64,000 nucleotides of DNA from positions 1 to 64,000 of the forward strand of contig NZ_JACYXK010000027.1 in the NCBI RefSeq assembly GCF_014842975.1, read 5' to 3'. Below the pieces are notes generated by a model. The model saw only the letters and a list, made by a program, of their open reading frames with translations, did no database searches and was not told the DNA's origin. Positions 9,481 to 60,088 of the stretch are shown here, piece by piece (position 1 is the first letter of the stretch; each line of letters opens with the position of its first letter). This DNA comes from Rhodanobacter sp. DHB23. Lineage in GTDB: Bacteria > Pseudomonadota > Gammaproteobacteria > Xanthomonadales > Rhodanobacteraceae. A program made the translations under genes and the position numbers.

Positions 9481-9505
9481 TGCGTAACTCCCCGAATAGA
9501 AAGCC

Positions 9506-9626: not shown

Positions 9627-10292
9627 ATGAAATTGCTGCTGGTGGAAGACTCCGAACGCCTGCGCCAGACCCTGCGACACGGCCTGCTGGGCGCGGGTTT
9701 CACCGTGGACGCCGCCGCCGATGGCGTGGAAGCCTGCGGCTTCCTCGCCGGCTACGACTACGAGCTGGTGGTGCTGGACCTGATGCTGCCGCGGCTGGAC
9801 GGCATCAGCGTGCTGCGCAGCCTGCCCTCCAGCGGGCGCCGGCCGCGCGTGCTGGTGCTGTCCGCCCGCGACCAGGTGCCCGACCGCATCGAGGCGCTGA
9901 ACGCCGGCGCCGACGACTACCTGGTCAAGCCCTTCGCCTTCGACGAACTGGTGGCCCGTCTGCACGCGCTGTCGCGCCGCCCGCAGCAAGCCCAGCCCGA
10001 CGTGCTCAGCCATGGCGCGCTGAGCTGGGATCCGCGCTCGCACAGCACCAGCGTCGACGGCCGGCCGCTGGCGCTGACGCCGCGCGAGTTCGCCGTGCTC
10101 GGCCTGCTGCTGCGCCATCGCGGCCGCGCCTTCAGCCGGCAGGAGATCCTCGACCGTACGGCGGGGAGCGACACTGAGGTATCGGACCGCAGCGTGGAGG
10201 TGCTGGTGTTCGGCCTGCGTCGCAAGCTGGATGCGGCGGGCGTGCCCGGCCTGATCGAAACGCGGCGTGGCGCGGGGTATTTGATCCCGTGA
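9627..10292 (+). CDS. OmpR/PhoB-family response regulator
   Basis: A 221-residue DNA-binding response regulator. The receiver domain (1-115) has the acidic pair E7/D8, phospho-acceptor D51 in VVLDLMLPRLDG, and a conserved lysine in DDYLVKPFAFDEL. The C-terminal winged helix (about 125-221) has LTPREFAVLGLLLRHRG, the recognition-helix segment VSDRSVEVLVFGLRRKLDA and the GAGYLIP end. It resembles QseB/PhoP-type regulators. The ATG at 9627 is chosen because MKLLLVED is the canonical start. Its likely partner kinase begins at 11092, but a 735-bp hairpin-rich palindrome separates them, so co-transcription would have to pass through very strong secondary structure. The signal is unknown. Confidence 0.93.
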   Translation: MKLLLVEDSERLRQTLRHGLLGAGFTVDAAADGVEACGFLAGYDYELVVLDLMLPRLDGISVLRSLPSSGRRPRVLVLSARDQVPDRIEALNAGADDYLVKPFAFDELVARLHALSRRPQQAQPDVLSHGALSWDPRSHSTSVDGRPLALTPREFAVLGLLLRHRGRAFSRQEILDRTAGSDTEVSDRSVEVLVFGLRRKLDAAGVPGLIETRRGAGYLIP

Positions 10293-10323
10293 GGACGCTC
10301 CCTTGCCCGCTCGCACCCATTCT

Positions 10324-11058
10324 CCCCTCGCCCGCTTGCGGGAGAGGGGCTGGGGGAGAGGGCGCTTTTACTTTGGCTGTGTTATCGCAAGGGACAGAGC
10401 GGTTTCGTCCGCCTGTCGGCGGCCGAGTTACTTCTCCTTTGCTTGTCCAAAGGAGAAGTAACCAAGAGGAAACGACACCCCGATGGCGCGCCCTCCGGGC
10501 CTCCTGCCCTACGGGTGCGCGGGTGGGCTGCGGGGTTTTTCGACGGGACTCCTGTCCCGGCGAAAAACTGGCCCGCATCCATGCGGGCCACCCTACGGGC
10601 TTTCCTCCGCCCACCCGCCGCGCCATAGGGGCCCCGGAAGAGCAGCGCGCTCCCAGCGCGCAGAAGCAACAGCCAGAGCAAGGCGAAGCGCTGCAAGTTT
10701 GCGGTGCTTTGGCTTTTGCTTCTGGCGCACACGATGCGCGCCTGCTTTTCCAGGGGCCCCTCGGCGGCGGTGAGGTGGGGACGAAAAGGCCGCGCAGCGG
10801 GCGAGCCCATGGATGGGCTCGCCTTTTCGCGCGGGCAGGAGCCCGCTCGAAAAGCCCGGCCCCGCCTCACGGACTTGCCGGGCAGGAAGCCCGGCAAGCG
10901 CCGCCGCGGGGTGGCCTTCTCTTTTGGTCACTTTTCTCTTGGCCACGCAAGAGAAAAGTAACTCGGCCGCCGACAGGCGGACGAAACCGCTCTGTCCCTT
11001 GCGATAACACAGCAAAAGCCCCTCTCCCCCAACCCCTCTCCCGCAAGCGGGAGAGGGG
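10324..11058. repeat. Giant imperfect palindrome: two inverted copies of a modular hairpin unit (U1, U2)
   Basis: The whole spacer between regulator and kinase is one imperfect palindrome centred near 10697. Arms 10377-10433 and 10956-11012 are perfect 57-bp inverted repeats, flanked outside by CCCCTCTCCC-type hairpins (10324-10349, 11033-11058). Inside, each half has the same modules in mirror order: a long hairpin P4 (10427-10462; 10927-10962); an outer stem P1 (10519-10528 with 10609-10618; 10770-10780 with 10860-10870); two enclosed hairpins, P3 with a TCCT/AGGA loop (10536-10567; 10824-10853) and P2 with an ATCCAT/ATGGAT loop (10569-10590; 10800-10823); and a GGGGCCCC block. U2 also has hairpin P5 (10874-10898). 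Stem sequences differ but remain paired. Open frames through it look spurious. I see no gene in this stretch. Confidence 0.88.
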
Positions 11059-11091
11059 AGATGGGCTCGCGCCCACGAAGCAAAGCCGAGC

Positions 11092-12462
11092 ATGAAGCCC
11101 GCCTCCCTCTCCGCCCGCGTCACCGTGCTGCTGGCCATCGTCTGCCTGCTGGTGCTGGGCGGCGGCGCCAAGCTGATGGACTGGCGCATCGACCACGAGC
11201 TGGCCAGCCGTTTCCACCAGAACCTGCTCGAACAGGCCCGTGCGCTCGGCACCATGCTCGCGCAGGAACAGGCCACGCCTTCCGGCCACGTCGTCGCCGG
11301 TCCGGCCGGCGCCGATGCCTGGTACGACCTCCGTTGCGACGGCGCCCCGCCGCAGCGCAGCGACCCGCCGCCGCCGGCCGTGCCGGAGGGCTGGCCCGAC
11401 AACGTGGACGCAAAGCCGCGCTACGCCCGGCTCGGCCACCACCAGCACCATCTGGACACGGTGCGGCTGAGCTTCGCCCGTCCCGGCAGCGCGGCACCGG
11501 CCACCTGCCGCCTGCTGTTCGTGCAGGATCGCCACTCGCTGGACGAACTGATGCTGGCGTTCGACTGGATCCTCGCGCTGGGCCCGCTGCTCGCCGCCGT
11601 CATCGCGCTGATCGCCGTGCCGCTGGTGGTGCGCCGCGGCCTGCGGCCGATGAGCGCGCTGGTGAATCACATGGGCGGGATCGGCCCGAACGCCCCCGGC
11701 CAGCGCCTTGCGCCCATCGGCCTGAAGGAGCTCGACCCGCTGGTGGCGCGCTTCAACGACGTGCTGGCCCGCATGGACGACGGCCTGGCGCGCGAACGCC
11801 AGTTCGCCAGCGGCCTGGCCCACGAGACGCGCACCCGCCTCGCCGAGCTGCGCGCGCTGGCCGAGGTGGAGGCGCGCTATCCCAGCGGCCGCAGCCTGCC
11901 CGACCTGCTGGCTGAGATCGGCAGCATCGGCGCGGAGCTGGAAGCCACCGTCACCGCCCTGCTCCTGCTCACCCGCCTGCAGTCCGGGCTGGAACAGCCG
12001 CAGTGGCAGCAACTGGCGCTGGCGCCGTGGCTGGAGCGCCAGTTGCAACGCCAGCACGCCACCATCGCCGCGCGCGGCATCGCGCTGGTGAGCAAGGGGA
12101 CGCCTCCCGCCCAGCTGTGCACCGATCCCGCCTTGCTGGAGGTGATCGTCGGCAACCTGCTGGGCAACGCCTGCGCCTACGCCCCCGAGAGCGACACCGT
12201 GCGGCTCGTCGTCGACGCGCGCGGCCTCGCCATCGACAACGCCGCGTTCGGCCTCACCGACGCCGACCTCGCCAGCTTCGGCCAGCGCTTCTGGCGCAAG
12301 CAACTGCCCCACGCGGGACACGCCGGGCTCGGCCTCGCGCTCACCGCCGCCGCCGCGCGGGCGCTGGGCATGGCGCTGGACTTCAGCCTCGATCCGCAGC
12401 AGCGTCTGCACGCCACCCTCGATTGGCAGGCAGCCGTCACCCGGGAAACCTCCACGCCATGA
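11092..12462 (+). CDS. Sensor histidine kinase, degenerate H and G1 boxes
   Basis: A 456-residue membrane sensor kinase. TM1 is at about 11-27 and TM2 at about 157-179, enclosing a roughly 130-residue periplasmic domain. A HAMP-like linker follows, then a DHp helix with ASGLAHETRTRLAEL (phospho-acceptor H244) and an ATPase domain with N box NLLGNACAYAPE (355-366), F box FGQRFWRK (396-403) and G2 box GHAGLGLAL (409-417). Two features are unusual: the H box has Arg where HELRTPL-type kinases have Pro, and the G1 box reads DNAAFG (382-387) instead of DxGxG. It probably pairs with the regulator ending at 10292. It overlaps the next gene by 4 bp (ATGA). Confidence 0.88.
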   Translation: MKPASLSARVTVLLAIVCLLVLGGGAKLMDWRIDHELASRFHQNLLEQARALGTMLAQEQATPSGHVVAGPAGADAWYDLRCDGAPPQRSDPPPPAVPEGWPDNVDAKPRYARLGHHQHHLDTVRLSFARPGSAAPATCRLLFVQDRHSLDELMLAFDWILALGPLLAAVIALIAVPLVVRRGLRPMSALVNHMGGIGPNAPGQRLAPIGLKELDPLVARFNDVLARMDDGLARERQFASGLAHETRTRLAELRALAEVEARYPSGRSLPDLLAEIGSIGAELEATVTALLLLTRLQSGLEQPQWQQLALAPWLERQLQRQHATIAARGIALVSKGTPPAQLCTDPALLEVIVGNLLGNACAYAPESDTVRLVVDARGLAIDNAAFGLTDADLASFGQRFWRKQLPHAGHAGLGLALTAAAARALGMALDFSLDPQQRLHATLDWQAAVTRETSTP

Positions 12463-13652: not shown

Positions 13653-14250
13653 CCCCTCTCCCATTCATGGGAGAGGGGTTGGGGGAGAAGGGCGGGTGCT
13701 CGCGACAACCTTTCATCTCCGCACTTTGGCTCGCCTGCGGCGGGCTTTCGATCGCCTGCCGGCGCTCGAGCCACCTTTCTTTGCTGGCCCAAAGAAAGGT
13801 GGCCCAAAGAAATGGCCTTGCTTGATCCGCCGGAATTACAAGCAGGCTATTTCGAGGATGCTGGAATCACATCCCGCGACACGCCCACTACCGCCGCCAT
13901 GCCGCGCCGTATCTGGAGGCTGAGGAACCGAATCTCGCGGCGCCCCGCTTTTCGCTTTGCTTCTGCGCGCAGGAGCGCGCTGCTCTACCCGGGGCCCCTC
14001 GGCGACGGTGAGGCGTGGACGACAAGGCCGCGCAGCGGGCGAGTCCACGGATGGACTCGCCTTTTCGACCGGACAGGAGTCCGGCCGAAAAGCCCGGCCA
14101 CGCCTCACGGACTTTTCGCCCACGGAGGGGCGAAAAGCGTCGCCGCGGGGTGGCCTCTCTTTTGGTTACTTTTCTCTGGCCACGCAGAGAAAAGTAACTC
14201 GGGCCGCGACAGCGGCTCGAAACCGCTCTGAAACTTGCGAAGCAAACACA
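13653..14250. repeat. Second modular hairpin element (partial unit U4 plus full unit U3)
   Basis: The spacer between mug and the efflux operon. The left part has a CCCCTCTCCCAT / ATGGGAGAGGGG hairpin (13653-13678) and a perfect 14-bp P4-type hairpin (13770-13783 with 13790-13803). The right part is a full unit in the orientation of U2: GGGGCCCC (13991-13998), outer stem P1 GTGAGGCGTGG / CCACGCCTCAC (14008-14018, 14098-14108), P2 (14038-14061), P3 with an AGGA loop (14062-14091), P5 (14112-14137) and P4 (14165-14198). The end resembles the 57-bp arm of the first element. The middle (about 13830-13935) is unrelated filler. I see no gene in this stretch. Confidence 0.85.
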
Positions 14251-27071: not shown

Positions 27072-27212
27072 GGCGAATACTCTCTAGTAGGTCTGTTGTT
27101 ATGAAGCGCTGGCACCTGTGTCCAACACCCCGCGGTTACCCGCTTTTATGGCCTCATCGAAGCGAGGCTCTTTTTAAGATCCCCAACCGGAGCGAAAGCT
27201 CTTATGAGGAGT

Positions 27213-31176: not shown

Positions 31177-31608
31177 TTACTCCACGCTGCCGCCGGCTGC
31201 CTCGATGGCAGCCTTGGCACCCGCCGTGGCCAGCAGGCCCGACAGCTTCACCGCGCGACCGATCTCGCCCTTCAGCACGACCTTGACCTTCTTGGCCTTG
31301 CTGTCGATCAGGCCGGCCTTGTGCAGCTCGACCACGTCGATCACGTCGGCCTTGAGGCCGGCGAGCTGGTACAGGAACACCTGCTGGCTCTCGGCCTTCA
31401 GCTTGGAGCGGAAGCCGACCTTGGGCAGGCGACGCTGCAGCGGCATCTGGCCGCCCTCGAAGCCGTACTTGTGGGTGCCGCCGGCGCGGGCGTGCTGACC
31501 CTTGTGGCCGCGACCGGCCGTCTTGCCGAGGCCCGAGCCGATGCCGCGACCGACGCGCAGCTTGGTCTTGCGCGAACCGGCGGCCGGCTTGATGTCATTC
31601 AAACGCAT
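31177..31608 (-). CDS. rplO: 50S ribosomal protein L15
   Basis: 143 residues. [20 protein letters not shown] is the conserved start, followed by the Gly-rich basic [17 protein letters not shown] segment that threads into 23S rRNA. The C-terminus has [21 protein letters not shown]. Its stop is 4 bp before the secY GTG, and rpmD ends 2 bp upstream of it, the tight spc-operon packing. Confidence 0.98.
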
Positions 31609-31610
31609 GA

Positions 31611-31808
31611 TTAATCCTCCACCTGGACCAGGTAGTAGACCGTGTTGATCAGGCCACGCACCTGCGGGCTGTCCTTCAGCTCGCGGACGTCGTTGGTCTT
31701 GTTCAGGCCCAGCGCCTTGACGCTGAGGCGATGACGCGCCTGCACGCCGCGTAGGCCCTTGACCAGGCGCACGCGCACGGTGCCGGCGGTTTCGTTCTTC
31801 TTAGCCAT
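31611..31808 (-). CDS. rpmD: 50S ribosomal protein L30
   Basis: 65 residues; L30 in bacteria has about 60. It begins [20 protein letters not shown], then [20 protein letters not shown] and [13 protein letters not shown]. The ATG at 31806-31808 overlaps the end of rpsE by 8 bp, so translation is coupled. It binds 23S rRNA and contacts L5/5S-region rRNA. Confidence 0.96.
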
Positions 31809-32310
31809 TGCCCAGCACCTCTTCCACGGTCTTGCCACGCTTGGCGGCGATCTGCTTCGGCGAAGCCACCGCCTGCAGGCCCTTGATGGTGGCACGCACC
31901 AGGTTGATCGGGTTGCGCGAGCCGACCGCCTTGGCCAGCACGTTCTTCACGCCGACCACTTCCAGCACGGCGCGCATGGCGCCGCCGGCGATCACGCCGG
32001 TACCTTCGGAAGCCGGCTGCATGTAGACGCGGGCCGCGCCGTGGTTGGCCTTGATGGCGTACCACAGGGTGCCGTTGTTCAGGTCGATGTTCACCATGTT
32101 GCGACGGGCGCGCTCCATCGCCTTGGAGATGGCGACCGGCACTTCGCGCGCCTTGCCATAGCCGAAGCCGACCTTGCCCTCGCCGTCGCCGACCACGGTC
32201 AGCGCGGTGAAGCTCATCTGGCGGCCACCCTTGACGGTCTTGGCCACGCGGTTCACGGCAATCAGCTTCTCGAGCAGGCCGTCTGAATTTTCGCGATCGT
32301 TGGAAGACAT
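31801..32310 (-). CDS. rpsE: 30S ribosomal protein S5
   Basis: 169 residues. A short charged N-terminus ([16 protein letters not shown]) precedes the S5 double-stranded RNA-binding domain with [16 protein letters not shown] and [18 protein letters not shown]. The second domain has [21 protein letters not shown]5 works in the decoding-accuracy and mRNA-helicase region. It overlaps rpmD by 8 bp. The 147-bp gap to rplR upstream is unusually long and contains a heptad repeat. Confidence 0.98.
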
Positions 32311-54354: not shown

Positions 54355-54503
54355 GGTTGACGCCTCGGTTCGCAGTGACGCCGGTGGTGCACGCACCGGC
54401 TGAAATGATGAAGACTTGATCTGGGAGATCGCGGTTGGGAACTCAGCACCTGAATTCCCAGCCGCCATACCCCAAAGCCACAGCATCCATGCTTGATGGG
54501 CCG

Positions 54504-54659
54504 CAAATGGGCTCCTGCCCATTTGTGGCTCGCCCGCCAAAGGCGGGCTCCGTCAAATCAGGCGCCACGCGCCTGATTTGCGGCGGGTCTCCTGACCCGC
54601 TGCGGGCTCCGCTGAATCGGGCGCAAGCGCCCGATTCACGGCGGGCCATCCTGGCCCGC
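54504..54659. repeat. Six consecutive hairpins in the rplL-rpoB spacer
   Basis: Perfect stems at 54504-54525 (loop TCCT), 54532-54548 (loop AAA), 54554-54580, 54583-54600 (GCGGGTC / GACCCGC, loop TCCT), 54614-54637 and 54641-54659 (GCGGGCCA / TGGCCCGC, loop TCC). The TCCT loops match hairpin P3 of the large repeat unit. The 400-bp spacer 54355-54754 holds no gene. Confidence 0.8.
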
Positions 54660-59912: not shown

Positions 59913-59923
59913 GAAGACTTTCG

Positions 59924-60024
59924 GCCGTCCTCCATGACGGCGAAGAACAAACCGGCATCCTGCCGGACTCTTCAAATTCAGCCATCCTCCATGATGGCGA
60001 AGCACAAGACCGGCATCCTGCCGG
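59924..60024. repeat. Tandem ~57-bp repeat of two hairpins between tRNA-Gly and tRNA-Thr
   Basis: Copy A has GCCGTC / GACGGC with loop CTCCAT (59924-59941) and CCGGCA / TGCCGG (59952-59966). Copy B has GCCATC / GATGGC with the same loop (59981-59998) and the same second hairpin (60010-60024). The first stem differs by a paired change, G-C to A-T, which keeps the structure. Confidence 0.75.
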
Positions 60025-60088
60025 ACCTTTCAAGAAAGCGCGCGACCTGTTGCAGTCAGCGACGAATCTTTCGTGACAGGACATTCAA

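Follow-up and report, generated by a model that had tools for sequence, protein, structure and literature searches.

What is the 799-bp sequence that separates a response regulator gene from the sensor histidine kinase gene downstream of it in Rhodanobacter sp. DHB23? The window analysed here is the whole 64,000-nucleotide stretch containing the locus. The original prediction, made from this sequence alone, described an imperfect palindrome of two inverted copies of a multi-hairpin unit, splitting a two-component operon, and took it for a structured non-coding mobile repeat or a paired RNA that could attenuate kinase expression. In three congeners (G003, G002 and G001; the genome of the window is G000) the regulator stop and kinase start codons overlap as GTGA with nothing between them, and an operon was therefore split by insertion, as had been proposed. 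Inserts at this junction measure 799 bp in G000, 885 in G004, 877 in G014, 649 in both G008 and G009, and 232 in G011, where just two element ends are left, fused, by eye, at the small terminal hairpin; the G007 contig covers the kinase side of the junction only, and a 71-bp "insert" in G013 proved to be an artefact of partial kinase alignment. Filled and empty junctions alternate on a kinase tree of 11 genomes, so that presence is patchy: the empty G003 is sister to the filled G000 and G004 (support 99/97), and the empty G001 groups with G014, G007 and G011 (94/95). This pattern calls for more than one hit at the junction, or else for precise loss of the insert or its replacement through recombination; the alternation suggests that the junction may be a repeated insertion target. 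TGA is present on both sides of the insert, and filler of tens of bp obscures its ends. Between positions 9500 and 12500 no sigma-70-like promoter was found, and there are seven terminator-like sites, compared with 1.8 (sd 1.3) in shuffled sequences.

A repeat search of the window returned inverted arms of 169 nt (10371-10539 with 10850-11018, 79% complementary) and outer inverted arms of 42 nt (95% complementary). The perfect inner stretch lies where predicted and is 58 bp by alignment (10376-10433 with 10956-11013) rather than 57. The unit is indeed present in inverted form, but its halves are diverged subtypes, here called L and R, of about 300 bp each and about 76% alike, rather than two copies of one sequence. 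Each arm folds into a branched group of hairpins, frequently enclosed by REP-like ends (Table 1); the P2 and P3 hairpins are found in both halves, as first described. A match to a protein-coding family had been named as evidence that would count against a non-coding element; the four open reading frames over the palindrome and two more over a second family copy in the window gave no Pfam match, and a protein-coding origin was rejected on these. Rfam gave nothing at gathering level in the palindrome, and a known RNA family was likewise rejected, since permissive matches fell far under the cut-off (RsmY, 12.1 bits against 57).

Table 1. Features of the insert, its flanking genes and the second family copy (window coordinates).
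Feature	Position	Strand	Remark
Whole insert, 799 bp	10293..11091	none	absent in G003, G002, G001 (GTGA there)
Upstream gene: response regulator, Response_reg + Trans_reg_C	9627..10292	+	start codon inferred by eye
Downstream gene: sensor histidine kinase	11092..12462	+	HATPase_c over cut-off, HisKA below cut-off
Left outer REP-like imperfect palindrome (CCCCTC..GCGGGAGAGGGG)	10321..10362	+	separately dispersed
Right outer REP-like palindrome, inverted	11020..11061	-	separately dispersed
L-type arm, GGA loops on - strand	10371..10670	-	limits approximate
R-type arm, GGA loops on + strand	10716..11018	+	limits approximate
Central linker	10671..10715	none	differs between copies (alignments)
EH, small terminal hairpin, L arm, loop TGTC/GACA	10409..10422	none	
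TH, 15-bp terminal hairpin, L arm	10427..10462	none	
H2 hairpin, L arm, loop AGGAG	10497..10509	-	
P1 stem, L arm	10519..10618	-	10519-10528 with 10609-10618; encloses P3 and P2
P3 hairpin, L arm, loop AGGA	10535..10568	-	
P2 hairpin, L arm, apex ATGGAT	10569..10590	-	
Hin hairpin, L arm, loop TGGGA	10645..10661	-	
Hin hairpin, R arm, loop ACGAT in this copy	10724..10742	+	GGA in 36/83 R arms
P1 stem, R arm	10770..10870	+	10770-10780 with 10860-10870; encloses P2 and P3; one G-T pair
P2 hairpin, R arm, apex ATGGAT	10800..10823	+	
P3 hairpin, R arm, loop AGGA	10824..10853	+	
H2 hairpin, R arm, loop AGGAA	10874..10898	+	
TH, 15-bp terminal hairpin, R arm	10927..10962	none	
EH hairpin, R arm	10967..10980	none	
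Second family copy in window: short arm inverted to R arm	13744..14238		short arm 13744-13817, R arm 13961-14238

The palindrome is almost certainly a member of a dispersed, mobile, non-coding repeat family. Its sequence has 108 matches in its own genome. Five double-arm copies lie on contigs C22, C24, C25, C19 and C26; the other matches are R-type arms, some of them single and some paired with a short arm, and many outer 40-nt ends on their own. The 42-nt outer ends occur by themselves at about 40 additional places, so the REP-like end is an independent repeat. Three of the double copies have common outer ends, beyond which their sequences diverge. R-arm matches occur in 14 of the 15 genus genomes and in 35 of 61 relatives, the own genome being counted in both. 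A covariance model, R1, built on the P1 domain of 22 R arms and used under strict filters across the order, matched 18 of 121 genomes and 11 of 57 genera, some of them in other families; three genomes belonging to a single other genus have 20 to 32 matches each. When named genome contigs were scanned for the end pattern, 83 stretches came up; among the 80 listed, 68 are from Rhodanobacter, 5 from one Lysobacteraceae MAG, 1 from Fulvimonas and 6 from unrelated taxa. These six (L186, L198, L202, L212, L218 and L245) are single exact matches to the 22-nt end pattern on contigs labelled Planctomycetota, Verrucomicrobiales, Mucilaginibacter, Micrarchaeota, Actinomycetota and Sphingomonadales, and may reflect chance, contamination or transfer.

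Profile searches of 98 loci (duplicates and L026-L086 left out) yielded 169 arm hits, 121 R and 48 L. Arms or arm ends are inverted in 66 of these loci, a single arm was recognised in 31, and one has neither. The commonest pairing is L-R; R-R (L112 and, by nearest profile, L160, L161 and L165) and L-L (L158) also occur, as does an R arm facing a short arm that matches the terminal 60-90 nt only. By these pairings, the arms resemble exchangeable modules set between common inverted ends. In G108, from another genus, many copies are wrapped on one or both sides in two extra mirrored layers, a CGTCATCCC-type repeat and a GGGAGAGGG REP around the core. Many copies in that genome (L331-L346) have equal model scores and are ~76-99% alike over longer stretches. 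At L347 (G036:C1:2255500-2271500) eight model matches lie within 14 kb (six oriented one way, two the other), a cluster unlike the usual dispersed inverted pairs.

Mobility is indicated at other sites too. For two own-genome copies (L002 and L003) several congeners have an empty site, by eye an overlap of the stop and start codons of co-directional genes, as at the regulator-kinase junction; a third (L004) is absent in G003, whose corresponding site is an ordinary intergenic gap. Tens of bp of filler separate element from genes at the loci examined and obscure any clear target duplication. Neighbours were resolved by codon-score gene calls for 85 of the 98 loci (37 convergent, 43 co-directional, 5 divergent), and at 80 of the 85 at least one gene points into the element; family copies sit at gene 3′ ends. 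The neighbouring genes differ widely among copies, which makes a kinase-specific role unlikely. A PF01797 search of the own genome gave two Y1_Tnp matches (C19:311874 and C19:268542). No arms lie near these genes, a profile search of C19:1-320000 having found arms only at 31464-32070, and by eye the hairpins around both genes include no end of the palindrome family; a RAYT was rejected as mobiliser, since neither candidate gene has a family member beside it. At L055, the 109-aa matched part of an open reading frame scored 51.9 bits for REP_Tyr_transpos, for which the cut-off is 80.

Folded as RNA, the 800-nt sequence lies 28 sd below 20 shuffles, and single arms, on each strand, 5.7 to 7.3 sd below 100 shuffles. 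Complete arms number 84 of the 121 R and 37 of the 48 L (83 and 36 distinct). RNAalifold gave L and R alike a structure of Hin, P0, P1 enclosing P2 and P3, H2, the 15-bp TH and the small EH; the P1 sequences of the two subtypes are unrelated, yet both pair, as had been noticed for this copy. Among 67 of the 84 full R arms, double changes occur in 29 of 79 pairs. Double-change cells number 449, compared with 143 (sd 8.3) after shuffling, and 0 of 500 shuffles reach 449, a comparison in which relatedness alone can exceed the shuffles; paired cells make up 97.8% of the R-arm alignment, against 38-47% when it is slid. Aligning the P1 domains of L and R arms jointly misplaced the region of P2, and that alignment was left out. 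The original prediction had looked to many genomic copies and covarying pairs for support; the searches gave many copies, and the R-arm alignment many compensatory pairs.

These pairs do not by themselves speak for RNA. Over Watson-Crick columns of all stems there are 168 G·U and 121 A·C mismatches; by stem, G·U/A·C is 4/16 in Hin, 48/37 in P0, 36/9 in P1, 5/10 in the inner pairs, 6/7 in P2, 19/11 in P3, 7/6 in H2, 38/19 in TH and 5/6 in EH, so that P1 and TH alone lean to G·U and Hin leans to A·C. Assignment of an RNA strand from G·U excess was rejected as unsupported on the totals. An RNA-only constraint should clearly favour G·U, and the two totals count against an RNA reading; with G·U close to A·C, stem pairing is no sign of an RNA, and the covariation could be maintained at the DNA level. 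Of the element as predicted, the structured and apparently non-coding mobile repeat is supported; its RNA nature is putative. DNA template switching, which two papers describe as keeping hairpins perfect during replication (PMC8794818; PMC8604942), and one of them as also inverting spacers (PMC8604942), is a sufficient explanation for the short stems. Double changes can have few intermediates: columns 114 and 130 hold CG 35 times, GC 31 times and another combination once.

The loops behave otherwise. The apices TCCT/AGGA and ATCCAT/ATGGAT had been noticed originally, but not their identity as CsrA-type sites that persist through changes in the stems. On the strand that runs outwards from the linker, an apical GGA is found in P2 of 79 of 83 R and 36 of 36 L arms, in P3 of 77 and 36, in H2 of 77 and 34, and in Hin of 36 and 35; on this strand none of these four hairpins has TCC in its apical loop in the 83 R and 36 L arms. 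Published as primary CsrA/RsmA sites are AAGGA, ACGGA, ATGGA, AGGGA and AGGA, and as secondary ones CTGGA, AGAGA, CGGGA and TGGGA (PMC4066749). A primary word (ANGGA or AGGA) stands in 335 of the 357 P2, P3 and H2 loops of the 83 R and 36 L arms on the outward strand, with some ATGGA-type H2 loops scored as AGGA because mostly-gap columns were dropped beforehand, and in 0 of 357 on the opposite strand. Hin has a primary word in 24 of 83 R and 5 of 36 L arms and a secondary one in 9 R and 25 L, and lacks GGA in 47 of the 83 R arms. The terminal hairpins have a primary word once in 238 (TH 0/119, EH 1/119), and 34 of the 119 TH loops contain a GGA that is no site word. For comparison, primary words were scored on either strand in 57 of 1314 hairpins inside genes, and in 44 of 308 intergenic hairpins outside the arms, repeats being uncollapsed.

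In R-arm P2 the base preceding GGA takes all four letters, and the A and GGA are mostly constant. In other genera the P2 stem sequences are widely different (those of P3 less so) and GGA is retained, in 44 of 46 P2 and P3 loops of the 23 distinct model matches of at least 60 bits. Over all 61 distinct matches 112 hairpins have GGA, 12 neither and 6 TCC, the 6 coming from three matches of low score, on the other strand of arms already in the count; as R1 was built from GGA-loop arms, weak matches are biased to GGA, and strong ones much less. Relative to co-directional neighbours, GGA was kept in 89 sense loops and lost in 4, and kept in 102 antisense loops and lost in 4; stand-alone GGA hairpins comprise 24 sense, 29 antisense and 16 between opposed genes. 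These counts showed no sense-strand bias and no better retention of GGA in sense arms.

Accessibility depends on what is folded. In the minimum-energy fold of the whole insert, from which only structures were used, the arms pair together, the P3 and H2 GGA are buried and P2 alone is open; in the R arm folded alone, for which unpaired numbers were also used, all three GGA loops (P2, P3 and H2) are open. At the ATGGAT apices the predicted folds pair A with T, giving a four-base loop. The RsmE site is, by NMR, a hairpin with an ANGGAN hexaloop, according to part of a review (PMC7652899), and this is the sequence form of P2. Hairpins from CsrA SELEX are described, in passages of the published work, as having mostly four or fewer contiguous pairs, and the family stems are longer than most of these. 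The own genome has one canonical copy of the CsrA gene, with R44.

Hairpins with GGA loops are also found apart from the family's arms. Another REP-like family with ANGGAT loops occurs in the window at 27212, 32878, 34406, 41100 and 42491, and on other contigs of the genome; its sequence is GAARAGT followed by GCGGCCATGGATGGCCGC or similar, often then CTTCGCGATCAGGGATGATCGC. Between tRNA genes at 59923-60026, hairpins CCGGCAGGATGCCGG and GCC(G/A)TCATGGAGGA(C/T)GGC alternate, with GGA on the tRNA sense strand, and at 54503-54659 there are three consecutive GGA-loop hairpins on the sense strand of the neighbouring genes. At the regulator-kinase junctions of G009 and G007 (L062 and L063) the loop of the terminal hairpin is enlarged by extra GGA-loop hairpins (e.g., GGGCAGGATGCCC), by eye on the strand opposite to the GGA loops of the arm itself.

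The retention of these loops on one and the same arm strand, through changes of stem sequence, suggests something that reads GGA in single-stranded loops, and CsrA/RsmA would be the best-fitting candidate. The interpretation we favour, with a probability of roughly 0.45, is a mobile palindrome carrying hairpins with a predicted role in RsmA/CsrA binding. It would be a non-autonomous mobile palindromic repeat built of two inverted arms, each with at least three hairpins that would present ANGGA or AGGA in the apical loop, read from the linker outwards. Where copies settle at gene 3′ ends, read-through transcripts would cross the elements, and the inverted arms would let a transcript from either side display the GGA hairpins of one arm, the far one. 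Hairpins so displayed should bind RsmA/CsrA as a local 3′-UTR binding site, and the ~20 copies per genome, summed, could act as a distributed RsmA/CsrA decoy. Such an orientation-neutral design would explain the absent sense bias, which is otherwise evidence against an RNA role. Against CsrA binding weigh the buried P3 and H2 GGA of the full-length fold, the A paired with T in the ATGGAT apices, stems longer than most of those from SELEX, and the RsmA binding that Xanthomonas RsmU kept with its predicted GGA motifs changed. Transcription of the element, CsrA binding, titration, an effect on the kinase and the mode of movement are inferred. More tentatively, the element may be a transposable RsmA/CsrA sponge, with an orientation-independent array of putative CsrA-binding hairpins as its sole cargo; together with the other GGA-loop repeats it would then form a dispersed, evolvable titration network in 3′ UTRs, which would replace one CsrB/RsmZ gene and give the element a reason to be tolerated.

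A purely DNA-level mosaic, of REP/BIME or MITE kind, would form its hairpins in single-stranded DNA and have no RNA function, its GGA loops serving as recognition sites for its mobiliser or for some other DNA-binding protein. The REP-like outer ends and nested mirrored layers agree with this, as do the G·U and A·C totals (168 and 121), the lack of sense bias in the GGA hairpins and the GGA loops of other repeats in the genome; we nevertheless regard it as somewhat unlikely. An HUH transposase usually needs one hairpin per end, a need that three to four GGA hairpins per arm exceed. No arm was found near either Y1-transposase match, the loci examined and the PF01797 search revealed neither a clean target duplication nor a mobiliser, and the loop words closely match the published CsrA list.

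That the palindrome is neutral, its stems kept perfect by template switching and its loops alike by common descent only, seems improbable, although switching of this kind has been described (PMC8794818; PMC8604942) and would produce double changes with as few intermediates as columns 114 and 130 show. Common descent accommodates poorly a P2 loop of R arms in which the base before GGA varies freely and A and GGA are mostly fixed, or P2 stems that differ widely between genera around a constant GGA; and switching is described as also inverting spacers (PMC8604942), yet 0 of 357 loops are inverted. Least probable of all, in our estimate, is that the kinase gene has here a local attenuator or a paired riboregulator. 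The insert does split an overlapping regulator-kinase pair, and terminator-like sites between 9500 and 12500 exceed those of shuffled sequence (7 against 1.8, sd 1.3), but the family adjoins many other genes, the junction is empty in close relatives and presence on the kinase tree is patchy.

If the loops bind CsrA/RsmA, as the favoured interpretation predicts, mobile repeats that usually pass for genomic clutter would form a layer in the wiring of a global regulator, and one inserted copy would put a neighbouring transcript under that regulator; the family would also be a candidate CsrA antagonist for bacteria that have no recognised CsrB/RsmZ gene. If they do not bind, it would still be a good example of loops kept while stems change, one of use in distinguishing selection on RNA from template switching in DNA.

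Among the matches listed in open-licence PMC literature, none described this family or a mobile repeat that binds CsrA, and the family's nearest counterparts are of several kinds. REPs are short and have a conserved head motif. Like REP, BIME and REPIN sequences as described in PMC2817692 and PMC3116915, the family consists of extragenic inverted palindromes, mosaic, in many copies and with compensatory changes. It differs from them in arms of ~300 bp, a branched fold and several GGA loops, and from REP/BIME systems with a RAYT in that no rayt gene flanked by two inverted family copies was found in its own genome. MITEs are non-coding, have inverted ends and leave empty sites in relatives. The family resembles MITEs with long inverted repeats in being apparently non-coding, with inverted ends and empty sites in relatives, and is unlike them in its imperfect, type-swapping arms. 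Several hairpins with apical GGA are also the mark of CsrA-sequestering sRNAs of the CsrB/RsmZ type and of Xanthomonas RsmU, an mRNA-derived sRNA whose RsmA binding and function, according to passages of its description, were not abolished when all four predicted GGA motifs were changed (PMC7694677). Unlike CsrB/RsmZ and RsmU the family is dispersed and mobile with an inverted two-strand design, and unlike the sequestering sRNAs it matches no Rfam family at gathering level; its resemblance to a CsrA decoy RNA is one of motif only.
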